Shown here piece after piece: positions 15,810 to 28,515 of a stretch of DNA of 35,958 bases; positions within the stretch are counted from its first letter, which is position 1; every line of letters starts with the position of its first letter. The notes under the pieces were generated by a model. The model had not been told where the DNA came from, made no database searches, and saw only the letters and a program-made list of their open reading frames with translations. The stretch comes from an uncultured Clostridia bacterium (GTDB lineage: Bacteria > Bacillota > Clostridia > Oscillospirales > Oscillospiraceae). The translations under genes were made by a program, and so were the position numbers. Location: assembly GCA_945864305.1 (NCBI GenBank), contig CAMBAJ010000019.1:1-35958 (forward strand), written 5' to 3'.

Positions 15810-16691
15810 TCAATAAAACTCCCTGATGTAGTTCTCCACGTCCTGACGGGTGCCCATGAAGGGGCCCGGGGTCTCCATCTTCAGGGAAACCAGCGCGGTG
15901 GCAGTCTGGAGGGCGGTGGGGATGTCCTTCGTCAGGCGCTCGTTGATGTAGCCGGCAAAGGTGGTGTCGCCCCGGCCGGTGCGGCCGGACATGCTCCGGG
16001 ACTTGATGGGGCAGGTATAAATGTCCTTGCCGTCATAGACCAGGACCTCCGTGTTGTGGGTGATCAGGATTTCCTTGGCGCCCCAGTCGTACAGCATCTT
16101 GGCGGCCGCGGCACGGTCGTCGGTGCCGGTCAGAATCTCTGCCTCGGCGGCGTCGGTCTTCAGGAACCGGACGTAGGGCAGCATCTCCTTCTTCTCCGCC
16201 CAGTCGTGATACACCATGCCGCCGTTTTCCACACAGCGCAGCATGGTCTGGACGTCGATGGCCACCATGGCGTGCTGCGCGGCGAAGGGGATCATCTCAT
16301 TGGGGATATCGCCGCCCACCAGACCCGCCAAATGCCAGATTTTTGCGTCGATGGCGGGGACCTCGTTGGTCTGATAGGGCTCGATCACGCTGTCAACCGT
16401 GGAGGTACGGCGCTCCCGGTCCGGCGTATGGTAGACGTTCTTCGTCACGAAAGAGGTCTTGCTGTGCAGGGGAAACACAGTCACATTGGGGGCCGCCGCG
16501 AAGGCGGCCTTCATATCCATCACAGCAGTGTCCGCCTTGGGCAGCACCGCGATCTTGTGGCCCATGTTGGCGGCCGCAAAACCGGAGTAATACACCGCGC
16601 CGCCGGTGGCCTGGACGGTGGTACCATCGTAGTCCACGTTGGTGTCTTGGGCAACCTCGCCGATGATGAGGGAATCAAACTGCTGGCTCAT
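15810..16691 (-). CDS. PfkB-family carbohydrate kinase
   Basis: 293 residues from the ATG at 16691 (MSQQFDSLIIGEVAQDTNVD) behind AAAGGAAGG. It is a ribokinase-fold ATP-dependent sugar kinase. ATGGAVYYSGFAAANMG near residue 35 is the N-terminal substrate glycine motif. The C-terminal signature SGRTGRGDTTFAGYI near 238-252 supplies the catalytic Asp, in GRGD rather than the usual GAGD. IWHLAGLVGGDIP and FLKTDAAEAEILTG are further family landmarks. The substrate is unknown. It starts one base after the PHP gene stop, so the two are coupled, and it belongs to the LacI-PHP-PfkB transcript divergent from the HAD cluster. It probably phosphorylates the inducing sugar or an intermediate (inference). 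Confidence 0.9.
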   Translation of the reverse strand: MSQQFDSLIIGEVAQDTNVDYDGTTVQATGGAVYYSGFAAANMGHKIAVLPKADTAVMDMKAAFAAAPNVTVFPLHSKTSFVTKNVYHTPDRERRTSTVDSVIEPYQTNEVPAIDAKIWHLAGLVGGDIPNEMIPFAAQHAMVAIDVQTMLRCVENGGMVYHDWAEKKEMLPYVRFLKTDAAEAEILTGTDDRAAAAKMLYDWGAKEILITHNTEVLVYDGKDIYTCPIKSRSMSGRTGRGDTTFAGYINERLTKDIPTALQTATALVSLKMETPGPFMGTRQDVENYIREFY

Positions 16692-16692
16692 G

Positions 16693-17418
16693 TCATTTAC
16701 CTTCCTTTCGCATCTCCTCGTCCGCTGCCACCAGGTCCGGGAACTCCGGGCACCACAGCTGGAACTGCATGGTCTCAATCATATGCTTATAGGCAAAGGA
16801 ATCCTTGACTCGCTCCGGGAGAATAACACCCGCGTGGGCCTCGTCGCCGTCCCGGTGGGTGTCGGAACCGGCCAGACGGTAATACTCCGGATGGCGGCGG
16901 CACATCTCCAAGGCTTTATCATTGTTGTTCACGTGACGAGGGTTATTGTTGATGATCTCCGCGCCGTGGATGGCGGTCTCCTGCACCGGCGCGCTGCCCT
17001 TGCGGAAGGGATGGGCGTGGATGATGAGGACCTGGTCGTGAAACTTGTCGTAAAACTCCTGGGCGCTCATGCAGCAGGCGTAAGGGTTGGAGCGGAGCCA
17101 CTGCTCGTCGATGCCGTAGACCAAGTAGTCGTTGTCATTTTCCGGGAACCGGAACTCAGCACCCAGTATGACGTCCAGGCCCACCTCGTCGCCCCGCTTC
17201 TTGGAGGCATGGTAGCCGGAGAGGTAGTGGTCCATCACCTTGTCCCAGTTGTGCTCCGTGTCGATACGAGACAGGTACTCGGGGTGAAGGTGGTCCGTTA
17301 CCACCAGGCCGGAAAAGCCGTTGCGTACATAGCGGTCCACCACATCGGCGGCAAACAGATGGCCGCACTTGCTGGTTTCCGCAGTATGGGTATGAGGATC
17401 GTACAGATAGCCGTTCAT
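16693..17418 (-). CDS. PHP-domain phosphoesterase
   Basis: 241 residues from the ATG at 17418 behind GGGAGAG. The PHP metal site is complete: HTH in DPHTHTAETS (about 8-10), TDHLHPE (about 42-47), the Glu of ILGAEFRFPEN, HAHPFRKG (about 140-147), and GSDTHRDGDE near 192. PHP enzymes are metal-dependent phosphoesterases (histidinol-phosphatase and polymerase PHP families), and this one looks like a small-molecule phosphatase or cyclic phosphodiesterase. The substrate is unknown. It sits between lacI and the PfkB kinase on one strand, so kinase and phosphoesterase are co-expressed. Confidence 0.87.
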   Translation of the reverse strand: MNGYLYDPHTHTAETSKCGHLFAADVVDRYVRNGFSGLVVTDHLHPEYLSRIDTEHNWDKVMDHYLSGYHASKKRGDEVGLDVILGAEFRFPENDNDYLVYGIDEQWLRSNPYACCMSAQEFYDKFHDQVLIIHAHPFRKGSAPVQETAIHGAEIINNNPRHVNNNDKALEMCRRHPEYYRLAGSDTHRDGDEAHAGVILPERVKDSFAYKHMIETMQFQLWCPEFPDLVAADEEMRKEGK

Positions 17419-17444
17419 ATGTGTTCTCTCCCTTTCCATGCAGG

Positions 17445-17474: not shown

Positions 17475-18485
17475 TCAGATTTTATTCAGTGCTCGGCAGG
17501 TACTGCGTTTGATCAGAGTCGGCATCAGTATCTGATGAACATACCCTTGAGTGCCGTTTTCGATCTTGTCCCGGAGCATATCCACCGCCTGTACCGCCAT
17601 ATCCCGCTTGGGCTGTTCAATGGTCGTCAACTCCAGACGGGGCAGGCTCGTGGATGGAATATTATCAAACCCGATCAGGCTGAGCCGTCCAGGAATGTCG
17701 ATGTGCAGTTCATCCGCGGCTTTCATGATACCGATGGCATTGGAGTCCGTGGAGGCGAAGATGGCCGAGTAATCAATGGGCTTGGAAAACAGGTCCTTGG
17801 CCAACTGGTATCCATTGTTGATGGAGGAGTGGGAAAATTCGCTGTTGAAAAAGCGCTGTTTCAGCCCCAGCTCCTGGCAGGCTTTCATATACCCCTCTGC
17901 CCGGAGCTGATGCGTCGTGGAGTGGCGGCGGCCGAAATACAGAATGTCCCGGTGGCCCAACTCGTACAGATATTTGGTGCCGATGTAGGTGCCCCGGCTG
18001 TTATCAGCGGCCACATAGCTCTGGGGCTGATCCCGGAGATTCTCCGACAGGAACACCGTGGGCACCTGATCGGTATAAGCCCGAATATTCTCATAGGTCT
18101 TGGAGCTCTGGGGCACGATGAGAATACCGTCCACCTGGCGGCCCAGCAGCAGCTTGACCACCGTTTTTTCCTGCTTCAAATCAGGTCCGGAATTGCACAG
18201 CATAATATTGTACCCGTGGGCACGGGCGCTCATTTCCGCGTAATAGGCCAGTTCCGACATGAATTGGTTGTCAATGGACGGGACCACCAGGCCAATCAGG
18301 TCCGTTTTCTTCATGACCATGGACCGGGCCACATAGTTGGTCGTGTAGCCCATCTCGTCGCAGAGCTTGATAATACGCTCACGGGTGTCGCTTCCAATCT
18401 GGGGACTGCCGGACAGGGCGCGGGAAACCGTGGCATAGGAGACGCCGGCTGCCTTGGCAACATCTTTCAAGGTCACGCTTTTCAT
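17475..18485 (-). CDS. LacI-family transcriptional regulator
   Basis: 336 residues. The N-terminal LacI helix-turn-helix (LKDVAKAAGVSYATVSRALS) and hinge helix region (NYVARSMV) precede a periplasmic-binding-like effector domain (DLIGLVVPSIDNQFM, DGILIVPQSS, YFGRRHSTT, FASTDSNAIGIM, RLSLIGFDNIP). It should bind a sugar or sugar phosphate and repress both divergent operons; AAACGTTT-type operators lie in both leader regions. It starts with ATG after GGAAAGGACG. The downstream PHP and PfkB genes are likely in its transcript. Confidence 0.93.
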   Translation of the reverse strand: MKSVTLKDVAKAAGVSYATVSRALSGSPQIGSDTRERIIKLCDEMGYTTNYVARSMVMKKTDLIGLVVPSIDNQFMSELAYYAEMSARAHGYNIMLCNSGPDLKQEKTVVKLLLGRQVDGILIVPQSSKTYENIRAYTDQVPTVFLSENLRDQPQSYVAADNSRGTYIGTKYLYELGHRDILYFGRRHSTTHQLRAEGYMKACQELGLKQRFFNSEFSHSSINNGYQLAKDLFSKPIDYSAIFASTDSNAIGIMKAADELHIDIPGRLSLIGFDNIPSTSLPRLELTTIEQPKRDMAVQAVDMLRDKIENGTQGYVHQILMPTLIKRSTCRALNKI

Positions 18486-18744: not shown

Positions 18745-18827
18745 CGCCGTTGAAGAGTGCCCCTCCTTGGGATTCCCGTTTTTTCTCCCGGTGGGTGGCC
18801 CTCTTCTTCGCAGAAGGGAGGACTATT

Positions 18828-19583
18828 ATGATCCGCGCGGTTCTCTTTGATGTCGGCGGTACGCTCCACGAAGTCCATCACAGTCCGGAGCAGGCCGAAA
18901 AATTTTCCCAGCGGCTCTTAAACCGTCTGGCGGAAAGCGGCATCATTCTTCCCATTGACGCCGTCTCTTTGACGCCGCTGCTCCAGACAAACGCTGAAGC
19001 CTATAAGCACTGGTCCGAGGAACACATGAAGGAGCTGCCCAATTCCCGCATCTGGAGTAAATTCTATTTAAAAGACTTCCAGATTGAAGAAGCACGTCTG
19101 GCCCCGCTGTCGGAAGAACTGTCCGTGCTCTATGACGCAGTGCGCGTCCGCAACATCCCCCGTCCCCATATGCTGGAGACCATTCAGGCCCTCCATGACA
19201 TGGGAATGGTCCAGGGGATCATCAGCAACATCATCTCTGCCACCTTTGTTCCCCGTCTGGTGGAGGACTACGGAATCGCCCCTTACATGTCCTGTGTGAT
19301 CCTCTCTTCCACCGAAGGCATCCGCAAGCCCGCCGCCGCAATCTTCGAAAGAGCTGCCGAGGCCTGCGGCGTTCCCTGCGGCGAGATGGCCTATGTGGGC
19401 GACACCCTCTCCCGGGATGTGCTGGGTTGCCGGAACGCCGGTGTGGCCCTCAGTATCCAGATTCGCAATCCCTCTATCGCACACCGGGACACCGCGTTCA
19501 TCGGCACGGGTCTGGCCCCCGATGTGCAGATCAGCGATTTACAGGAGATTCCAGAGATTATCCGCACTTACAATTCCCGATGA
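18828..19583 (+). CDS. HAD-superfamily protein 1 (DxG variant)
   Basis: 251 residues from the ATG at 18828 behind GGGAGG; the frame is open for 53 further codons upstream, but those overlap promoter and operator. Motif I is LFDVGGTL with nucleophile Asp8 and Gly at position 10 instead of the acid/base Asp. A helical cap occupies about 15-110. Motif II is GIISN, motif III Lys in GIRKPAAAIFE, and motif IV YVGDTLSRDVLG. The Rossmann core and Mg site are therefore complete apart from the second Asp. It is the most divergent of five tandem paralogues, with less biased codon use. Phosphatase or phosphotransferase activity is possible but not assured. Confidence 0.87.
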   Translation: MIRAVLFDVGGTLHEVHHSPEQAEKFSQRLLNRLAESGIILPIDAVSLTPLLQTNAEAYKHWSEEHMKELPNSRIWSKFYLKDFQIEEARLAPLSEELSVLYDAVRVRNIPRPHMLETIQALHDMGMVQGIISNIISATFVPRLVEDYGIAPYMSCVILSSTEGIRKPAAAIFERAAEACGVPCGEMAYVGDTLSRDVLGCRNAGVALSIQIRNPSIAHRDTAFIGTGLAPDVQISDLQEIPEIIRTYNSR

Positions 19584-19596
19584 TATCTGTTATACT
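19568..19596 (+). promoter_or_regulatory. Internal promoter before HAD protein 2
   Basis: TTACAA, 17 bases, TATACT. It overlaps the last codons of HAD 1; genes from HAD 2 onward may thus be expressed separately from the LacI-controlled promoter. Confidence 0.6.
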
Positions 19597-19647
19597 CATA
19601 TTCACAAGAAAACTTTAATTTATACATTATAAAAGGAGGATACACAT

Positions 19648-20382
19648 ATGACTCCCGACATTCAGACCATCTTCTTCGACGTTGGCAACACCCTGCGCAT
19701 CGTGGTGCCCGATCAGGAATTCATCGACAAGGCCGAGGCCGGCCTGATGGAACTGATCCAGACCAAGGAATCCCACGACGAGCTGTTTGAAAAGCTGGAG
19801 GCACGCTGGAAGGTTTACCGCAAGCTGTCTAAGGACACCCTGCTGGACGTCTCCGAGGGCGAGCTGTGGACCCAGTTCATGCTGCCCGACTATGAGCCCA
19901 ACATGATCTACGCCAACGCCCCCAAGCTGACCCGCCTGTGGCGCGACCACGACGGCCGCCGCGTGGCCCGTCCCGACGCCGTGGCTACCCTGAAGGAGCT
20001 GCAGGCTCGCGGCTACACTCTGGGCATCATCGCAAACACCGTCACCGAGACCGAGATCCCCGACTGGATGGCCGCCGACGGCGTGGCCCAGTGCTTCAAG
20101 ACCACCATCCTGTCCTCCAAGGTCCGCCTGCGCAAGCCCGACCCGGCCATCTACCACCTGGCCTGCCGCTGCATCGGCACCCCCGAGGCCAACTGCGCCT
20201 ACGTGGGCGACAACCCCGTCCGCGACGTGGAGGGCACCCAGGCTGCCGGTTTCGGCATGATGATCCGCATCGACGAGCCCGACACCTTGAGCAAGGAAAA
20301 GGCCACTGGCAAGGAGTTCATTCCCGATCACGTCATCACGAAGCTGGGTGACCTGCTGGACATCTTCCCCGCCCGTGGGTGA
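19648..20382 (+). CDS. HAD-superfamily protein 2 (DxG variant)
   Basis: 244 residues, with an optimal AAAAGGAGG site. Motif I is FFDVGNTLRI with nucleophile Asp11 and Gly13 in place of the second Asp. The cap domain is about 20-95. Motif II is GIIANT, motif III the Lys of RLRKPDPAIYHLA, and motif IV YVGDNPVRDVEG. Motif III through IV is almost identical to HAD 3 apart from a few residues, marking a recent duplication. Codon use is very strongly C-ending, suggesting high expression. Confidence 0.88.
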   Translation: MTPDIQTIFFDVGNTLRIVVPDQEFIDKAEAGLMELIQTKESHDELFEKLEARWKVYRKLSKDTLLDVSEGELWTQFMLPDYEPNMIYANAPKLTRLWRDHDGRRVARPDAVATLKELQARGYTLGIIANTVTETEIPDWMAADGVAQCFKTTILSSKVRLRKPDPAIYHLACRCIGTPEANCAYVGDNPVRDVEGTQAAGFGMMIRIDEPDTLSKEKATGKEFIPDHVITKLGDLLDIFPARG

Positions 20383-20387
20383 GCAAA

Positions 20388-21119
20388 ATGGCCCTATCTG
20401 ACATCAATACGCTCTTTTTCGACATCGGCAGCACCCTGCGGGTGACGGACAAGAATCCCGCGTTTATTGCGGAGGGCCGCCGGAAGCTGGCAGCCCTGGC
20501 CAAGAGCGATGAAGACTCCGAGGTTTTTTACAAAAAGCTAAAAGACCGCTATGACGCCTACCGGGAGGTCTCCAAGGTCGCCCTGCTGGATTACCCCGAA
20601 ATTGAGTTCTGGCAGCAGATCATGCTGCCGGATGTGGACGGGGAGTATGTGGCCGCCCACGCCCAGGAGCTGACCACCCTTTGGCGGGACGGCACCAACG
20701 GCAAGCGCCTGACCCGGTTCGATACCGTGGACACCATCAAGGAACTTCACCGCCGGGGCTACAAGCTGGGCATCATCGCCAACACCATCACCGAGGCGGA
20801 AATCACTGACTGGATGATTGAGGAGGGCATTTCCCACTGCTTCACCACCACCATCCTCTCCTCCAAGGTGCGGCTGCGCAAGCCCGACCCCGCCATCTAC
20901 CACCTGGCCTGCCGCTGCTGCGACACCCCGGAGGCGAACTGCGCTTACATCGGCGATAACCCGGACCGGGATGTGGAGGGCACCCGGGCGGCGGGCTTCG
21001 GCTGCATGATCCTCATCGACGACCCCAAAAAGGGCCGGACAGAGAACATGCAGGCGGCCTGCGACTGCCTGATTGAAAACCTCAGCGATCTGCTGGACCT
21101 CTTCCCTGAAAGAACTTGA
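20388..21119 (+). CDS. HAD-superfamily protein 3 (DxG variant)
   Basis: 243 residues from the ATG at 20388; a GTG at 20379 that overlaps the stop of HAD 2 is an alternative. The ATG gives the same N-terminal length as the other paralogues (MALSDINTLFFDIGSTL). Nucleophile Asp12, Gly14 instead of Asp. GIIANT, RLRKPDPAIYHLA and YIGDNPDRDVEG supply motifs II to IV. It is the closest relative of HAD 2 and translationally coupled to it. The acidic cap includes DYPEIEFWQQIMLPD, the equivalent of the GELWTQFMLPD segment in HAD 2. Confidence 0.87.
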   Translation: MALSDINTLFFDIGSTLRVTDKNPAFIAEGRRKLAALAKSDEDSEVFYKKLKDRYDAYREVSKVALLDYPEIEFWQQIMLPDVDGEYVAAHAQELTTLWRDGTNGKRLTRFDTVDTIKELHRRGYKLGIIANTITEAEITDWMIEEGISHCFTTTILSSKVRLRKPDPAIYHLACRCCDTPEANCAYIGDNPDRDVEGTRAAGFGCMILIDDPKKGRTENMQAACDCLIENLSDLLDLFPERT

Positions 21120-21137
21120 GAAAAGGAGAATCGTCCC

Positions 21138-21875
21138 ATGGATAACACCAAGCGTTACAAAGCTGTATTTTTTGACCTGGGCGGCACCCTGCGCATCGCC
21201 CTGAAGGACGAGCCCTACATGAAGCACGCCCGCCGCAAGATGGCGGAGATCGCCGGCACCGACATGCCCTACGAGGAGTTCTTCCAGCTCATTGAGGACC
21301 GCTACGAGCCCTACCGCAAGTGGGCCCTCAGCGAGTTCAAGGAGTCCGGCGACGAGGAGCTGTGGTGCAAGTGGCTGCTGCCCGACTATGACCCGGTCCG
21401 CATCAAGCAGGTCTGCCATGAGCTGAGCTACCAGTACCGCCAGACCAAGGGCCGCCGCGTCGTGGTCGACGGCGGCGTGGAGGTCATCAAGGGTCTCCAT
21501 GAGCGGGGCTACAAGCTGGGCATCATCTCCAACCTGATCGGTGAGACCGAGGTTCCCGACTGGCTGGAGGAGGACGGCCTGGACCAGTATTTCGACTCCG
21601 TCATTCTCTCCTCCGTCTGCCACCTGCGCAAACCCGGCTTTGAAATTTATCAACTCTGCGCCAAGGAAATGGGCGTGGAACTGGCGGACTGCGTGTCCGT
21701 GGCCGACAACATCAAACGGGACATTCCCGGCGCCAAGAAGGCCGGCGTTGGCTGCAACATCATCTTCGAGTCCCCGGAGAAAAAGCACGCTGTGGAATTC
21801 ACGGAGGAAAACCGCCCCGACGCGGTCATCAAGGACTTCCGGGAAATTCTGGACCTGCTACCGCCCCTGAACTAA
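21138..21875 (+). CDS. HAD-superfamily protein 4 (DxG variant)
   Basis: 245 residues, starting 18 bases after HAD 3 with AAAAGGAG. Motif I is FFDLGGTLRI (Asp13, Gly15). The cap contains ELWCKWLLPDYD and YQYRQTKGRR, the latter shared exactly with HAD 5. Motif II is GIISN, motif III the Lys of HLRKPGFEIYQ, and motif IV reads SVADNIKRDIPG, where the usual Gly before Asp is Ala. The Mg-binding acids are kept. HAD 4 and 5 form a second closely related pair. Confidence 0.87.
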   Translation: MDNTKRYKAVFFDLGGTLRIALKDEPYMKHARRKMAEIAGTDMPYEEFFQLIEDRYEPYRKWALSEFKESGDEELWCKWLLPDYDPVRIKQVCHELSYQYRQTKGRRVVVDGGVEVIKGLHERGYKLGIISNLIGETEVPDWLEEDGLDQYFDSVILSSVCHLRKPGFEIYQLCAKEMGVELADCVSVADNIKRDIPGAKKAGVGCNIIFESPEKKHAVEFTEENRPDAVIKDFREILDLLPPLN

Positions 21876-21938
21876 ATGATTCCACAGGACGTCCGGGGCC
21901 TCCCCCGGACGCGTCCTGCGTTCTGGAGGTTATACATC

Positions 21939-22715
21939 ATGAATACTGACATCCGTTACATCTTCCTGGACCTGGGCGGCACCTTCCGTGTCATCGACGA
22001 GGACCCCGCCTACCTCTCCGCCGCCCGGGCCAAGATTGCCGAGCTGTGCGGCGTGGAAACCGACGATCCCAACAAGTGGTTCGACGACGTCATCGACAAG
22101 CGGTATGACAAGTACCGGGAATGGGCCCTGAAATTTATGTGTGAGGCCCCTGAGGAGGTTCTGTGGACCCGCTGGCTGGCCTATGACATGGACCGGGAGC
22201 GCATCCTGAAGAACGCCTCCGAGCTGACCTATCAGTACCGCCAGACCAAGGGCCGCCGCACCGTGGTGGCCGGAGGCGCCGAGACCGTCAAGGAACTGTG
22301 CGCCAGAGGCTACACCCTGGGCATCATCAGCGACCTGGTTGGCAAGCGCGAGGTGGACGAGTGGCTGGACGCCGATGGTTTGCGGCCTTACTTCAAAACC
22401 GTGCAGCAGTCTTCCATCACCTACGTCCGCAAGCCCGGTCCCGCCATCTACTACTACGCCATGGAGGAGGTCGGCGCCCAGCCGGAGAACTGCTGCTATG
22501 TGGGCGACAACCTGAACCGCGACATCGTGGGCGCCAAGGCCTGCGACTTCGGCATGACCGTGGCCGTCCAGTACAAGAAAGACAAGCCCCTGAAGCTCAC
22601 CGAGGAAAATATGCCCAGCGCCAAGGTCTACGAGTTTCCCCAGCTGCTGGACATCTTCCCCGCCTGCGGCCAGGTGGCTGTGGATAAGCTGATTGCTCCC
22701 AATGACGGGCAGTAA
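21939..22715 (+). CDS. HAD-superfamily protein 5 (DxG variant)
   Basis: 258 residues from the ATG at 21939 behind CTGGAGG; the open frame extends to 21876 without a ribosome site. Motif I is FLDLGGTFRV (Asp11, Gly13), the cap has VLWTRWLAYD and YQYRQTKGRR, motif II GIISD, motif III the Lys of YVRKPGPAIYYYA, motif IV YVGDNLNRDIVG. The C-terminal tail is about 15 residues longer than in its paralogues. It is followed 41 bases later by the permuted phosphoglycerate mutase gene. Confidence 0.87.
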   Translation: MNTDIRYIFLDLGGTFRVIDEDPAYLSAARAKIAELCGVETDDPNKWFDDVIDKRYDKYREWALKFMCEAPEEVLWTRWLAYDMDRERILKNASELTYQYRQTKGRRTVVAGGAETVKELCARGYTLGIISDLVGKREVDEWLDADGLRPYFKTVQQSSITYVRKPGPAIYYYAMEEVGAQPENCCYVGDNLNRDIVGAKACDFGMTVAVQYKKDKPLKLTEENMPSAKVYEFPQLLDIFPACGQVAVDKLIAPNDGQ

Positions 22716-22756
22716 CGGTTTCTGATCCCACATATTCATTACAGGAGGTACATTCT

Positions 22757-24325
22757 ATGTCTGATATCAAGCGCGGCGGTGCCCAGTTGGCCGAGGCCGT
22801 GAAGAAAGCATACGAGCAGGGTCTGGACGACTACCATCTGGAGCCCATGGTCCTGGTGGAGGACGGCAAGCCCGTGGGCAAGATTGCTGACGGCGATGCC
22901 GCCATCTTTTGCTGCCGCCGCGGCGAGCGGGAGATCGAACTGACCGAGATGTTCACCGAGGAGGGCTTCGACAAGGTGGAGCGCCGGAAGCTGAACGATC
23001 TGGACTTTGTCATCATGACCATGTACCACGACAAGTTCAAGAACCTGCCCATCGCCTTCGCCCCCGCCAAGGTGGTGAAGCCCCTGGCCCAGGTCCTGTC
23101 CGAGGCCGGCAAATCCCAGTTCCACTGTGCCGAGTCCGAGAAATTCGCCCACGTGACCTTCTTCTTCAACGGCGGTGAGAACAACCCCTTCCCCGGCGAG
23201 GACGACGTATGCATCCCCTCCCCCAAGGGTATCGACTTTGACCAGCAGCCCGAGCTGTCCCTGCCCAAGGTGGCGGACACCGTCATGGACGCCCTGGGCA
23301 AGTATGACTTCGTTATCACCAACTTCGCCAACGGCGATGTCATCGGCCACACCCAGAACACCGCCGCCAAGATTCAGGCCTGCGGCTATGTCAGCCAGTA
23401 TCTGGACAAGGTCGTCAACGACGCACTGGCCAAGGGCTATGTGGTGGCCATTACCGCCGACCACGGCAACATCGAAAAGCTGTACACCGCCGCCGGTAAG
23501 CCCGACGGCGCCCACACTACCAACTTGGTGCCCTTCATCATGATCGACCCCGCCGATAAGTCCCCCATCACCCTGCGGGACGGCTCCCTGGGCGACGTGG
23601 CTCCCACCGTGCTGAACGTCATGGGCATTCCCCAGCCCGCCGAGATGGACGGCAAGTCTCTGGCCGAGGGCAAGGACTGGGGCAAGGACCGCAAGATGCT
23701 GCTGATTATCTGCGACGGCTGGGGCCTGGGCACCGGCGACGAGAACGACGCCATCCATGTGGCGGACACCCCCTACTGGGATTCTTTGCTGGCCGAGCAG
23801 TCCTGGAGCAAGCTCCACGCCTCTGGCGAGTTCGTAGGCCTGGGTGCCGGCAAGGCCGGCAACTCCGAGGCCGGCCACTCCAACCTGGGCGCCGGCCGCT
23901 GCGTCATGCAGGACGACGTCCGTCTGGACGCCGCCGTCAAGGACGGCACCTTCAAGCAGAACCCCATCTTCCTGGAGGCCATTGAGCATGCCAAGAAGAA
24001 CGGCACCAACCTGCACCTGCTGGCCTATCTGACCTACAAGTCCTCCCACGGCTGCATCGACTATCCCCTGAACATCTGCGAGATGGCGCGGGACAACGGC
24101 CTGGACCGGGTCTATCTCCACATCATCTTCGACGGCCGCTCCACCGATCCCGGCTCCGCTCCCACCCTGCTGGCGGAAACCGACGCCAAGCTGGACGCCA
24201 TCGGCGTGGGCCGCATCGTGGACGGCGTGGGCCGCGGCGTGGCGCTGGACCGAGACAAGAACTACGACAAGGTCAAGCGCGCCTATGATGCCATGGTGGA
24301 TGGCGTGGGTGCTCAGTACGAATAA
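22757..24325 (+). CDS. Circularly permuted cofactor-independent phosphoglycerate mutase homologue
   Basis: 522 residues, the usual iPGM (GpmI) length, but the halves are in reverse order. Residues about 12-302 match the canonical C-terminal part: R55 and R58 (the substrate arginines), K129 in SEKFAHVTFFFNGG, D194/H198 in NGDVIGH, D235/H236 in TADHGN, H253 in AHTTN. Residues about 311-522 match the canonical N-terminus: MLLIICDGWGLG with D320, the nucleophile S370 in KAGNSEAGHSNLGAGR, H431, R493 and R499. The old N-terminus is joined to the old C-terminus by a linker at about 303-312. The new ends fall in the transferase domain. DGRS (461-462) replaces the usual DGRD. The ribosome site is ACAGGAGG. 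The frame is clean and strongly codon-biased, so it is a real, expressed gene. The expected reaction is 3-phosphoglycerate to 2-phosphoglycerate, but a related phospho-substrate is possible given the cluster. Confidence 0.9.
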   Translation: MSDIKRGGAQLAEAVKKAYEQGLDDYHLEPMVLVEDGKPVGKIADGDAAIFCCRRGEREIELTEMFTEEGFDKVERRKLNDLDFVIMTMYHDKFKNLPIAFAPAKVVKPLAQVLSEAGKSQFHCAESEKFAHVTFFFNGGENNPFPGEDDVCIPSPKGIDFDQQPELSLPKVADTVMDALGKYDFVITNFANGDVIGHTQNTAAKIQACGYVSQYLDKVVNDALAKGYVVAITADHGNIEKLYTAAGKPDGAHTTNLVPFIMIDPADKSPITLRDGSLGDVAPTVLNVMGIPQPAEMDGKSLAEGKDWGKDRKMLLIICDGWGLGTGDENDAIHVADTPYWDSLLAEQSWSKLHASGEFVGLGAGKAGNSEAGHSNLGAGRCVMQDDVRLDAAVKDGTFKQNPIFLEAIEHAKKNGTNLHLLAYLTYKSSHGCIDYPLNICEMARDNGLDRVYLHIIFDGRSTDPGSAPTLLAETDAKLDAIGVGRIVDGVGRGVALDRDKNYDKVKRAYDAMVDGVGAQYE

Positions 24326-24346: not shown

Positions 24347-25366
24347 ATGATACGCTTAGGCATCATCGGTGCCGGCCGGATCGGCCGGGTCCACATCCGG
24401 GGCATTCTCTCCGGTGTTCCCAACGCCCGGATCCGCGGCATCGCCGCTCCTCATATCACACAAGACATCGAAGCACTTTCCCGCAGCGCGGGCGCGGAGG
24501 TCCTGACCCAGGACTACCGCGTCCTGCTGCGGGACCCTGCTATCGACGCGGTGCTGATCTGCTCTCCCACCGATACCCACGCGGATATCTCCGTGGAGGC
24601 GCTTGAGGCCGGAAAACATGTATTTTGCGAAAAGCCCGTGGATTTGGGGCTTGTTAAAATTCAAACTGTCATTGACGCAGTAGCCGCGCATGGTTTAAAA
24701 TATCAGGTAGGATTCAACCGCCGTTTTGACCATAATTACCAGGCGCTTCGCCGCGCTGTCACCGAGGGCCGGGTGGGCCAGGTGCAGCTTTTGAAAATCT
24801 GCTCCCGGGACTCCGAGCCTCCCACGCCCAAGTTCATCCCCTCCTCCGGAGGGCTGTTCCTGGATATGACGGTCCATGATCTGGACATGGTGCGTTTCCT
24901 CTCCGGCAGCGAGGTGGAGGAGGTCTATGCCGCAGGCAGCGTTCTGGTAGACGACGCCATCGGCGCCGCCGGAGATGTGGACACGGCGGCCATCGTGCTG
25001 CGTCTCCAAAGCGGAGCCCTGGCCCTGATTGACAACTCCCGCCAGGCCGTCTACGGCTACGATCAACGGGCGGAGGTCTTTGGCTCTCTCGGCTGCGCCT
25101 CCATCTCCAACGATACGCCATCCACTGCTGTGATCTCCACTGCCGATGGCATTACATCGGAAAAGCCGCTCTGGTTCTTTCTGGAACGCTATCTGCCAGC
25201 CTTTCAGGAGGAGGTGCGGCAATTTGTTGCGGCAGTGGAAAACGATTACCCTGTTCCGGTGGGCATTGAAGATGCCCGAAAAGCTACCCTGCTGGCAATG
25301 GCCTGTACCCTCTCCGCCAGGGAGCGGAGACCCGTCCGGATGGACGAGTTTTGTGACTCATTGTGA
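24347..25366 (+). CDS. Gfo/Idh/MocA-family NAD(P)-dependent dehydrogenase (inositol 2-dehydrogenase-like)
   Basis: 339 residues. The N-terminal Rossmann motif is LGIIGAGRIGRVH, with CEKPVDLG (the EKP Lys) at about 93-100. The substrate domain opens QVGFNRRFDHNY, and the catalytic Asp/His pair is in FLDMTVHDLDM. This arrangement resembles IolG, which oxidises inositol to 2-keto-inositol, but the family also oxidises many sugars and sugar acids. ATG follows GGCAGGAGG, 21 bases after the mutase gene, so it is co-transcribed. It is the only pyridine-nucleotide sugar dehydrogenase of the cluster. Confidence 0.88.
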   Translation: MIRLGIIGAGRIGRVHIRGILSGVPNARIRGIAAPHITQDIEALSRSAGAEVLTQDYRVLLRDPAIDAVLICSPTDTHADISVEALEAGKHVFCEKPVDLGLVKIQTVIDAVAAHGLKYQVGFNRRFDHNYQALRRAVTEGRVGQVQLLKICSRDSEPPTPKFIPSSGGLFLDMTVHDLDMVRFLSGSEVEEVYAAGSVLVDDAIGAAGDVDTAAIVLRLQSGALALIDNSRQAVYGYDQRAEVFGSLGCASISNDTPSTAVISTADGITSEKPLWFFLERYLPAFQEEVRQFVAAVENDYPVPVGIEDARKATLLAMACTLSARERRPVRMDEFCDSL

Positions 25367-25432: not shown

Positions 25433-26266
25433 ATGAACGAAAAGAAATGCAAAGTTCTGGCGGCCGAGATCCGGCTGGAGACCCTGAAGGTCATCCACTC
25501 CCGCGGCTTCGGCCACGTGGGCGGCTCCATGGATCTGGCCGACCTGATGGCCGTTCTCTACGGAGAAGTCATGAAGTTTGATCCCAAGAATCCCCGCTGG
25601 GAGGACCGCGACTGGATGGTCATGTCCAAAGGCCACGCCGGCCCTGTGGCTTACGCCACCTATGGCCTGATGGGCTACTATCCCATGGAGGACGCCTATA
25701 CATTGAACCAGCCCCACACCAAGTTCCCCAGCCACACCGACCGGAAGTTGACTCCCGGCGTGGACCTGACCACCGGCTCTCTGGGCCAGGGCGTCTCCAC
25801 CGCTGTGGGTGCCGCTCTGGGCAACAAGATCGACGGCCGTGACAACCACGTGTTCTGCATCATCGGCGACGGCGAGGCTGACGAGGGCCAGGTCTGGGAG
25901 GGCTTCCACTTTGCCTACGCCCACAAACTGGACAACATTGTTTTCTTTATTGATAAGAACGGCTATCAGTTGGACGGCCCCACCGACGACATCCTGGCCC
26001 ACAGTGATCTGGCCAAGAAGGCCGAGGCCTTCGGCCTGTACACCCAGGAGATCGACGGCCACGATGTGAAGGCCATCTATGACGCCATTCAGAACGCCTA
26101 CGCCAAGAAGGGCGTTCCCTCCTGCATCGTGCTGGATACCTGCAAGGGCAAGGGCGCGACTTTCGCCGAGCCTAAGCACGACCACTCCTCTCAGCCCAAT
26201 GAGGAGCAGTGGGCCGAGGCCCTGGCTGCTTCCGAGAAGGCTCTGGAAGAAATTAAGAACGCTTAA
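25433..26266 (+). CDS. Transketolase, N-terminal subunit
   Basis: 277 residues, the thiamine-diphosphate half of a split transketolase. SRGFGHVGGSMDLADLMAVL at about 24-43, SKGHAGPVAYA at about 66-76, GSLGQGVSTAVG at about 115-126 and the ThDP/Mg motif GDGEADEGQVWE at about 145-156 are intact. It pairs with the C-terminal subunit immediately downstream to move two-carbon ketol units between phospho-sugars. ATG follows AAAGGAAG. Split transketolases are common in anaerobes and often sit in dedicated catabolic operons (apulose 4-phosphate and sulfosugar transketolases are known examples), so this pair may be pathway-specific (inference). Confidence 0.93.
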   Translation: MNEKKCKVLAAEIRLETLKVIHSRGFGHVGGSMDLADLMAVLYGEVMKFDPKNPRWEDRDWMVMSKGHAGPVAYATYGLMGYYPMEDAYTLNQPHTKFPSHTDRKLTPGVDLTTGSLGQGVSTAVGAALGNKIDGRDNHVFCIIGDGEADEGQVWEGFHFAYAHKLDNIVFFIDKNGYQLDGPTDDILAHSDLAKKAEAFGLYTQEIDGHDVKAIYDAIQNAYAKKGVPSCIVLDTCKGKGATFAEPKHDHSSQPNEEQWAEALAASEKALEEIKNA

Positions 26267-26281
26267 AGGAGGGTGAGAGTA

Positions 26282-27256
26282 ATGAACGTGAAACTGATTG
26301 GTAAGCATGAAAAGGATTCCCGCGCCTGCCGCGACGGTCTCGCTCTGACCCTGAACGAGATGATGGCGGAGGACAAGTCCATCTGCTATGTGGACTGCGA
26401 CCTGATGGGCTGCATCAACACCAAGATGCTGCGCAAGAACTATCCTGACCGCGCCTTTGAGGCCGGTATTGCCGAGGGCAACGGCGCCGGCGTGGCCGCT
26501 GGCCTGGCCGCCACCGGCAAGAAGGTGTTCTTCCACTCCTTTGGTACCTTCTCCTCCCGCCGCTGCTATGACCAGATTTACATGTCCGCCGCCTATGCCG
26601 GACTGACCGTCCATGTGCTGGCCTCCGACGCCGGCGTCACTGCCGCGTTCAACGGCGGCACCCACATGCCTCTGGAGGATGCCGGCATGTATCTGAGCAT
26701 TCCCGAGACCACCGTGCTGGACCCCGCTGACTATGCGCAGCTGGCCAGCGTCACCCGCCAGCTGGGGAATATCACCAAGGGTGTCACCTTCACCCGCTTT
26801 GTCCGCAAGGGCATCATCAAGGTCTATGACGACGGCTCTGAGTTCGAGATCGGCAAGGGCGTGGTCCTGCATGAGAGCGAGAGCGATGCCGCCACCATTA
26901 TTACCTCCGGCATTATGGTGGACGAGAGCCTGAAGGCCTATGAGGCGCTGCAGGCCGAGGGCATCAATGTCCGTGTCATCGATATGTTCACTTGGAAGCC
27001 TCTGGACGAGGAGTTGGTCATCAAGGCCGCCAAGGAGACCGGTGCCATCGTCACTGCCGAGAACCACAATGTTACCTGCGGTCTGGGCTCTGTTGTCGCC
27101 AACTGCCTGGCCAAGAACTGCCCCACCATTCAGGAGTTTGTTGGCGTTCAGGATCAGTTCGGCCAGGTCGGTCCTCAGGACTTCCTGATGGACGAGTACG
27201 GCCTGCGCGCCGCCAACATCGTGGCCGCCGTCAAGAAGGCCATTGCCCGCAAGTAA
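26282..27256 (+). CDS. Transketolase, C-terminal subunit
   Basis: 324 residues from the ATG at 26282 behind AAAGGAGGG; a GTG three codons earlier overlaps that site. The pyrimidine-binding domain carries the catalytic Glu in EAGIAEGNGAGVAAGLAATG (about 61-80), a family HSFGTFSSRRCYDQI segment and SDAGVTAAFNGGTH. The C-terminal domain starts near 190 (TIITSGIMVDESLKAYEAL) and contains TAENHNVTCGLGS. It follows the N subunit by 15 bases, and the two must form the enzyme together. Confidence 0.93.
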   Translation: MNVKLIGKHEKDSRACRDGLALTLNEMMAEDKSICYVDCDLMGCINTKMLRKNYPDRAFEAGIAEGNGAGVAAGLAATGKKVFFHSFGTFSSRRCYDQIYMSAAYAGLTVHVLASDAGVTAAFNGGTHMPLEDAGMYLSIPETTVLDPADYAQLASVTRQLGNITKGVTFTRFVRKGIIKVYDDGSEFEIGKGVVLHESESDAATIITSGIMVDESLKAYEALQAEGINVRVIDMFTWKPLDEELVIKAAKETGAIVTAENHNVTCGLGSVVANCLAKNCPTIQEFVGVQDQFGQVGPQDFLMDEYGLRAANIVAAVKKAIARK

Positions 27257-27298: not shown

Positions 27299-27333
27299 AA
27301 ATAATTTTGTAAATCAAAGGAGAGTTGATTCCA

Positions 27334-28515
27334 ATGGCTATGGATGCTTTTTCCGCCTCTTTGATGGCTGATAAGAGAGAGATCATCTTCGCTCCCACCG
27401 TGTACAAGTTCCAGACCTTCGCCCAGATGGCCGAAGAGTTCAAGCTGAACGAGCGGGACGTGGTGCTGACCAACGAGTTCATTTACACCCCCTTCATGAA
27501 GGACCTGGGTCTGAAGTGCAACTTCGTGTTCCAGGAGAAGTTCGGCGCCGGTGAGCCCTCCGAGGCCATGATCCAGACCATGTACGACGCCATCCCCTAC
27601 GACAGCTATGACCGCGTCATCGCCGTCGGCGGCGGCGCCATCATGGACCTGTGCAAGCTGCTGGGCTGCAAGCGTCCCGACACCGTCCACAACCTGTACT
27701 TCAAGCGCTTCCCCGTGGTCCACGAGAAGGACGTCATTGCCATCCCCACCACCTGCGGCACCGGTTCTGAGTGCACCAACATCTCCGTGGCCATCGTCAA
27801 GGACGAGAAGGACGGCGTCCTCACCGGTGGCGAGACCAAGCTGGGCCTAGTTTCCGATGACATTATCCCCAACAAGGTCTGCCTGATCCCTGACCTGCTG
27901 CGCACTCTTCCCTACAAGCCCTTCGCCTGCTCCGCCATCGATGCTCTGGTGCATGCCACTGAGTCCTTCCTGAGCCCCCACCGCAAGACCACCACTTCCG
28001 AGCTATTCAGTGAAAAGGCCATGGACATGATTCTGAAGGGCTTCAAGCTCATCGACGAGAAAGGCCAGGACGCCCGGTTCGAGTACATGGATCAGTTCGT
28101 CACCGCTTCCTTCTATGCCGGCATCGCCTTCCTGAAGGCCGGCTGCGGCCCTGTCCACGGCATGAGCTTCCCCCTGGGCGGCACCTATCATGTGCCTCAC
28201 GGCGAGTCCAACTACATGCTGTTCGGCGCCATCATGGACTACTATGATGAGAAGAACCCCGACGGCGAGATCATGCGTTTCAAGGAGCTGGTTGCCAGCA
28301 TCCTGGGCTGCGAGGCCAAGGACGCCATCCCCGAGATGAACGCCCTGCTGCAGCGCATCCTGCCCCTGCGTCCCCTGCGTGACTGCGGCTTCACCGAGGC
28401 TGACTTCAAGGCCTTCCCCCAGTCCGTGGAAGCCAACCAGCAGCGCCTGATGACCAACGCCTACTATCCCTTTGATCTGGAGAGTGAAGAGGCCATCTAT
28501 CGCAAGTGCTACTAA
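27334..28515 (+). CDS. Iron-containing alcohol dehydrogenase, 4-hydroxybutyrate dehydrogenase-like
   Basis: 393 residues from the ATG at 27334 (AAAGGAGAG upstream). Group III Fe-ADH: IAVGGGAIMDLCK (about 96-108), IPTTCGTGSECTN with the NAD-binding loop (about 136-148), and metal ligands in SAIDALVHATE and in AGCGPVHGMSFPLGGTYHVPHG. From memory it resembles Clostridium kluyveri 4HbD throughout (APTVYKF, LTNEFIYTPF, VFQEKFGAGEPS, GGTYHVPHGESNY), more closely than other Fe-ADHs. It would interconvert a short hydroxy acid or alcohol with its aldehyde, here probably as the electron sink of the pathway. Succinate semialdehyde as substrate is not proven. It is the last gene before a strong terminator. 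Confidence 0.88.
   Translation: MAMDAFSASLMADKREIIFAPTVYKFQTFAQMAEEFKLNERDVVLTNEFIYTPFMKDLGLKCNFVFQEKFGAGEPSEAMIQTMYDAIPYDSYDRVIAVGGGAIMDLCKLLGCKRPDTVHNLYFKRFPVVHEKDVIAIPTTCGTGSECTNISVAIVKDEKDGVLTGGETKLGLVSDDIIPNKVCLIPDLLRTLPYKPFACSAIDALVHATESFLSPHRKTTTSELFSEKAMDMILKGFKLIDEKGQDARFEYMDQFVTASFYAGIAFLKAGCGPVHGMSFPLGGTYHVPHGESNYMLFGAIMDYYDEKNPDGEIMRFKELVASILGCEAKDAIPEMNALLQRILPLRPLRDCGFTEADFKAFPQSVEANQQRLMTNAYYPFDLESEEAIYRKCY

Follow-up and report, generated by a model that had tools for sequence, protein, structure and literature searches.

GpmI, the cofactor-independent phosphoglycerate mutase (iPGM) represented by the profile TIGR01307 and by the solved structure 1ejj from Geobacillus stearothermophilus, is the described enzyme closest to the gene reported here. 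In the canonical chain, the N-terminal half (Asp12, Ser62, and Arg153) precedes the C-terminal half (Arg261, Lys336, and the metal ligands), and PMC3886921 gives nine substrate contacts for the Bacillus enzyme (S62, H123, R153, D154, R185, R191, R261, R264, and K336). Two other known systems bear on the locus: cyclic 2,3-diphosphoglycerate synthetase (cDPGS; structures 8ork, 8oru, and 9sxb), described for methanogens in PMC10690619, and the PhnS2/PhnU2/PhnT2 importers of 2-aminoethylphosphonate systems. Phosphopentomutase and the sulfatases, of the alkaline phosphatase superfamily, matched only part of the chain, with 22% identity for that row. We analyzed a stretch of 35,958 nucleotides from an uncultured Clostridia bacterium of the Oscillospiraceae (contig CAMBAJ010000019.1, positions 1 to 35,958, here called the window), which carries at 22757-24325 on the plus strand an iPGM family gene whose two halves stand in the reverse of the canonical order.

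No description of a circularly permuted phosphoglycerate mutase was found among the papers listed by searches of the open-access literature, in agreement with a preliminary description of this DNA, which knew of none. As far as the accessible text of each goes, PMC2876114 names permutation for glutathione synthetase only; of two papers on iPGM, PMC5382265 has no word beginning with "permut"; in PMC2964296, "circular" appears a single time, in reference to a chromosome, and paralogues of iPGM are described as rare.

Anatomy and distribution of the permuted gene

The gene is an ATG-started open reading frame (ORF) encoding 522 amino acids plus a stop codon. A Shine-Dalgarno sequence, AGGAGG (22743-22748), lies 8 bases before the ATG, and GGAGG precedes the ATG in all 32 rows compared. 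In a phmmer search against solved structures, the top match was 1ejj. Residues 13 to 302 (22793-23662), which come first in the chain, pair with 1ejj residues 218 to 508 at 221 bits, and residues 313 to 521, within the second part of the chain (residues 313 to 522; 23693-24322), pair with 1ejj residues 5 to 213 at 147 bits; both scores are so high that a chance match is excluded. Residues 303 to 312 (23663-23692) form a ten-residue linker that leads from the old C terminus to the old N terminus, and the new termini lie near 1ejj residues 212 to 218, in the middle of the old chain. Pfam and NCBIfam profiles likewise match the product in two separate stretches. The gene passes the TIGR01307 cut-off (465 bits versus 330.65) because the scores of both stretches are summed, and it does not pass that of NF003897 (389 bits versus 862). 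It is near certain that the gene is a true circular permutation within the iPGM family. The preliminary description had given the same coordinates, strand, frame, and length, had noticed the reversed motif order, and had placed the fusion of the old termini near residues 303 to 312, all of which stands. If the domain borders are as we take them to be, the phosphatase core now runs without interruption, and the transferase domain is divided between the two ends of the protein. The second half folded alone gave a poor model (pLDDT 61.5). An antisense ORF of 460 codons (22739-24121, minus strand) overlies the gene and is probably a by-product of codon use.

Of 86 same-genus genomes, 31, among them that of the window, have the junction peptide uninterrupted; one of these carriers (G108) is a single 3.6-Mb contig. 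To judge by the loci that match, the window's genus is probably Oscillibacter or a near relative of it. A scan of a collection of 84,980 species returned 113 pattern matches, representing 50 loci. By record title, these loci belong mainly to Oscillibacter, Dysosmobacter, and Oscillospiraceae, and the others to Chloroflexi, Flexilinea, Sphaerochaeta, Lachnospiraceae, Butyricicoccus, and further Clostridia; the titles also show that the carriers include isolates as well as metagenome-assembled genomes. The permuted frame is longer than 480 codons at 48 of the 50 loci, and 46 of these 48 long frames were called at 511 to 526 residues (the start at L098 is called too late); the frames at L097 and L101 were called with too early a start, and at L094 and L100 the gene is cut by contig ends. 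Carriers also made up 8 of 61 relatives of a Sphaerochaeta genome and 9 of 61 relatives of a rumen Chloroflexi genome, already known genomes being included in both counts. That the gene might be an isolated oddity is ruled out by carriers across the same-genus, phylum, Sphaerochaeta, and Chloroflexi sets.

Ratios of nonsynonymous to synonymous substitution (dN/dS) were 0.10 to 0.34 in six pairs, and the permuted gene is under purifying selection. The preliminary description had taken it for an evolved natural gene, which these ratios and the same-genus carriers support; mis-assembly and a block order collinear with canonical GpmI, the two possibilities it had raised against itself, did not hold, since independent genomes share the permuted order and the blocks are not collinear.

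Active site, canonical paralogue, and phylogeny

Every catalytic block of iPGM had been said to be present, and this proved correct for the blocks as such but not for the Asp of the DGRD block. D12, S62, D403, H407, D444, H445, and H462, which we take to be the metal ligands and nucleophile, are kept in 49 of 49 permuted proteins, the nucleophile position being Ser370 (23864-23866) in the GNSEAGH motif of the window's protein. Eight of the nine substrate contacts are also invariant in all 49. At the remaining contact, Asp154, all 49 permuted proteins have Ser, which is Ser462 in the window's protein (24140-24142), and all 25 canonical proteins have Asp; L094 and L100 were excluded from these counts, and L114 had no usable sequence, leaving 25 of 26 canonical loci. 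In canonical iPGM, Asp154 probably acts on the hydroxyl group of glycerate to which the phosphate is transferred; its loss would fit a substrate in which the second hydroxyl already carries a phosphate. Six residues (S122, G124, S154, C259, R260, and E265) occur in 40 of 40 permuted rows, a second clade included, and in none of 30 canonical rows. Three of them, C259, R260, and E265, fall in the segment CRRGERE (residues 53 to 59; 22913-22933), which corresponds to the canonical Arg261/Arg264 loop.

The window's genome has in addition a canonical gpmI (C1:870-2363), which is 43% identical to the permuted gene and lies directly after a tpiA-like gene; in G007, the other of the two genomes examined in this respect, gpmI again follows a tpiA-like gene, itself preceded by a pgk-like one. 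The names pgk and tpiA are those of best matches under curated cut-offs. Canonical gpmI sequence was present in 22 of 24 carrier genomes, with only pieces in G486 and G493; among these 24, it was not found in G491 and G496, a cofactor-dependent mutase not having been searched for. The permuted gene is an extra paralogue beside canonical gpmI. Compared with GpmI, therefore, both halves are homologous, and the metal ligands, Ser nucleophile, and eight of nine contacts are identical; the permuted family differs in its reversed halves, Ser154, six family-specific residues, status as an extra paralogue, and neighbors.

A search of 398 genomes of the phylum gave 16 that passed an E value of 1e-75. 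Besides the window's own genome, these comprise 11 whose permuted proteins belong to a second clade (about 40% identity) and 4 whose proteins are unpermuted. A thirteenth permuted genome (G578), whose protein has an insertion, was reached via a neighboring gene. At L174 (5083-6828), the second-clade permuted protein has 581 residues, with an insertion of about 50 residues before the GALSDVAPT block. Beyond what the preliminary description offered, there is thus a family with two clades. An unrooted tree of 70 rows places all 40 permuted ones on one side of a branch with support of 100/100, and each clade has support of 100/99; L094 and L100 (contig ends), L144 (partial), and 19 permuted rows thinned out, nearly all from close Oscillibacter, were omitted. 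Trees built from each half alone show the same split between permuted and canonical rows. The possibility that the halves came from two separate canonical enzymes and were then fused was considered, but there is no sign of this, as both half-trees group the permuted rows.

No unpermuted relative with the Ser154 signature was among the matches passing E 1e-75 in the 398 genomes, the four unpermuted matches (L145 to L148) reading GRDV; nor was there any hint of such a form in 60 relatives, where half-only rows were at most 47% identical and their sequences mostly unread. A single ancient event, in its simplest form a tandem duplication after which the outer portions were lost, would have joined the old termini through the linker of about ten residues and opened new termini in midchain.

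Gene neighborhoods

Neighbors within 8 kb were counted at 64 of 66 loci, some genomes giving two; L175 and L177, whose contigs stop before the final gene of the second-clade cluster, were left out because they hold no permuted gene. The counts rest on homology rows; longest-ORF calling picked antisense frames, and codon-bias calling shortened genes. HAD-family hydrolases were found at 48 loci (many closely related), a LacI-family regulator at 40, importer parts at 26, and cDPGS at 6, many of the loci being near relatives or cut short.

The second clade has the order GntR regulator, cDPGS homologue, binding protein, permease, ATPase, permuted gene (L149, L150, L151, L154, L174, and L176). The cDPGS homologue matches the three solved structures at E values of about 1e-127 and differs from the described methanogen systems in that it stands in bacterial genomes, next to an importer. 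It was present in 8 of the 398 phylum genomes (L149, 3916-5253; L150; L151; L154; and L174 to L177) and was flanked by GntR and binding-protein genes in all eight. Seven of these eight genomes also have the permuted gene (in G772 on another contig), versus 13 of 398 overall; it was not found in the eighth, G817, whose genome is 72% complete. The hypergeometric probability of this co-occurrence is 4.6e-11, uncorrected for relatedness, and the genomes fall into three families. PhnS2, PhnU2, and PhnT2 were best or near-best NCBIfam matches of the L154 importer, but with scores below the curated cut-offs, and PhnR and PhnF were among the best matches of its regulator. In family f86, also of the second clade, loci L152, L153, and L155 share a conserved setting of homocitrate-synthase-like protein, MFS transporter, fumarate-reductase-like flavoprotein, and a P-loop protein that presumably resembles RapZ.

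Importers also recur in other phyla. The Chloroflexi loci L081 to L084 contain three HADs, the permuted gene, an ABC permease, an ATPase, a binding protein, a small membrane protein, and a further HAD; at the Sphaerochaeta locus L087, a binding protein, two ATPases, and a permease precede the permuted gene.

In the window, five HAD paralogues stand in tandem on the plus strand (18825-22715): paralogues e (18825-19583; motif DxGxT), a (19648-20382), b (20379-21119), c (21138-21875), and d (21939-22715), the last directly before the permuted gene. The motif DxGxT is present in all 64 members of the HAD cluster with a recognized motif (of 96); phosphatases usually have a second Asp where DxGxT has Gly. 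Downstream on the same strand are an IolG-type inositol 2-dehydrogenase (24347-25366; TIGR04380, above cut-off), N-terminal (25433-26266) and C-terminal (26273-27256) transketolase-like parts, each half of the model and hence under cut-offs, and an iron-containing alcohol dehydrogenase family protein (27325-28515; matches under cut-offs). A LacI-family regulator (17475-18485, minus strand; best matches under curated cut-offs) is divergent from the operon. Beside it on the minus strand (15810-17439) lie a PfkB-like kinase and an adjoining gene, which we take to resemble a PHP-domain protein; both are neighbors in many Oscillibacter loci.

Proposed function and significance

We tentatively favor, at a little under even confidence, the reading that the permuted protein is an enzyme of imported-organophosphate catabolism, acting most likely on 2,3-bisphosphoglycerate. 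The preliminary description had called it a GpmI-type mutase; as an extra paralogue with Ser for Asp154 in every member and with neighbors that suggest catabolism of imported phosphates, it is probably not a plain mutase. The linked importers suggest that the substrate is taken up from the surroundings, the retained Arg cluster that it is a phosphate of glycerate, and the cDPGS neighbor that it is 2,3-bisphosphoglycerate or its cyclic form. With the metal site, Ser nucleophile, and eight of nine contacts kept, a phosphoserine may still form from a phosphoglycerate-like ligand; the change of Asp154 to Ser would remove a negative charge, and the extra Arg260 beside Arg261 would add a positive one, so that there could be room for a second phosphate. 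In this way a mutase may have become an enzyme that takes phosphate from 2,3-bisphosphoglycerate and gives 2- or 3-phosphoglycerate for glycolysis. Its substrate could be free or could derive from cyclic 2,3-diphosphoglycerate (cyclic DPG) imported from methanogens, in which case the enzyme would supply the missing last step of cyclic-DPG use. We infer the identity of the substrate least securely for the window's own operon, since cDPGS was not found in that genome nor an importer in the window; the enzyme of that operon could instead act on a different compound, either phosphoglycerate-like or a sugar-acid phosphate.

A fuller scheme, which we consider doubtful, is a widespread bacterial scavenging pathway for the methanogen solute cyclic DPG. 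Uptake would be by the phosphonate-type ABC importer, the ring would be opened by cDPGS in reverse, with a gain of ATP, or by the first-clade HADs, and the permuted Ser154 enzyme would serve as a 2,3-bisphosphoglycerate phosphatase feeding glycolysis. According to PMC1224877, the M. fervidus cDPGS runs in reverse, forming ATP, and cyclic DPG accumulates in Methanobrevibacter smithii. Among the papers listed by a literature search, none, to judge by title and the opening of the abstract, treats uptake of bisphosphoglycerate by gut bacteria.

Several observations weigh against our reading of this family. According to PMC1224877, the M. thermautotrophicus cDPGS appears irreversible, and the abstract of PMC10690619 makes cyclic DPG exclusive to hyperthermophilic methanogens, which speaks against a source in the gut. 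Of 33 carrier genomes, only 6, each from the second clade, have a strong cDPGS match, and none was found in the 22 first-clade carrier genomes tested, the window's included. Four second-clade genomes of family f86 have the permuted gene without an importer or cDPGS nearby. The importer subunits score below the NCBIfam cut-offs for 2-aminoethylphosphonate transport. In the window, a homology search did not find the importer genes that are linked elsewhere, and IolG, the transketolase parts, and the alcohol dehydrogenase point to a sugar or polyol phosphate. Structure prediction gave a confident model, but the aligners used in the fold searches work in chain order and so matched one half only (residues 4 to 305). 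A warning from the tree tool concerns long branches: the one leading to the permuted rows meets nine canonical rows that are also long.

Among the alternatives, the one that survives best would have the protein act as phosphomutase or phosphatase on a different imported organophosphate, such as a phosphate of a sugar acid, of inositol, or of another polyol, together with the window's HADs, IolG, and transketolase. Their common same-strand run and the frequency of HADs near other loci make this a serious possibility, if on balance somewhat unlikely: IolG (8 of 64 loci) and the transketolase N-terminal part (23 of 64) are not constant neighbors, and the second-clade linkage to cDPGS points to glycerate phosphates. 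We consider it unlikely that the protein is a normal phosphoglycerate mutase whose permutation is incidental, an isozyme, redundant or used under particular conditions, that interconverts 3- and 2-phosphoglycerate. Such an enzyme would be expected to keep its metal ligands, nucleophile, and contacts and to pass TIGR01307, as this one does; against it are the consistent replacement of the substrate contact Asp154, the canonical gpmI, whole or in pieces, in nearly all carriers, and the tpiA-like neighbor of that gene in both genomes examined, a setting unlike that of the permuted gene. A phosphonate-processing enzyme is quite improbable. Phosphonoacetate hydrolase belongs to the same superfamily as iPGM, and the importer and GntR regulator resemble 2-aminoethylphosphonate systems, but all Phn matches are under curated cut-offs, and a phosphate ester agrees better with the retained phosphoglycerate-binding Arg cluster and with the cDPGS partner. 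Although the window comes from a draft assembly of 98 contigs, an assembly or annotation artefact or a decaying pseudogene has a vanishingly small probability and is refuted by independent assemblies, with the same half order in same-genus genomes, isolates, and other phyla, long open frames, Shine-Dalgarno sites, and low dN/dS.

Many anaerobic gut and rumen bacteria thus carry a rearranged relative of a glycolytic enzyme. Held across several phyla, this natural permutation of a central-metabolism enzyme is a natural experiment on new chain ends in the iPGM fold. Automatic annotation may hide it, since TIGR01307 sums the two halves and passes and NF003897 fails. Together, the fixed active-site change and the link to cDPGS provide a testable case for what would be an undescribed exchange of organophosphates between methanogens and gut or rumen bacteria.
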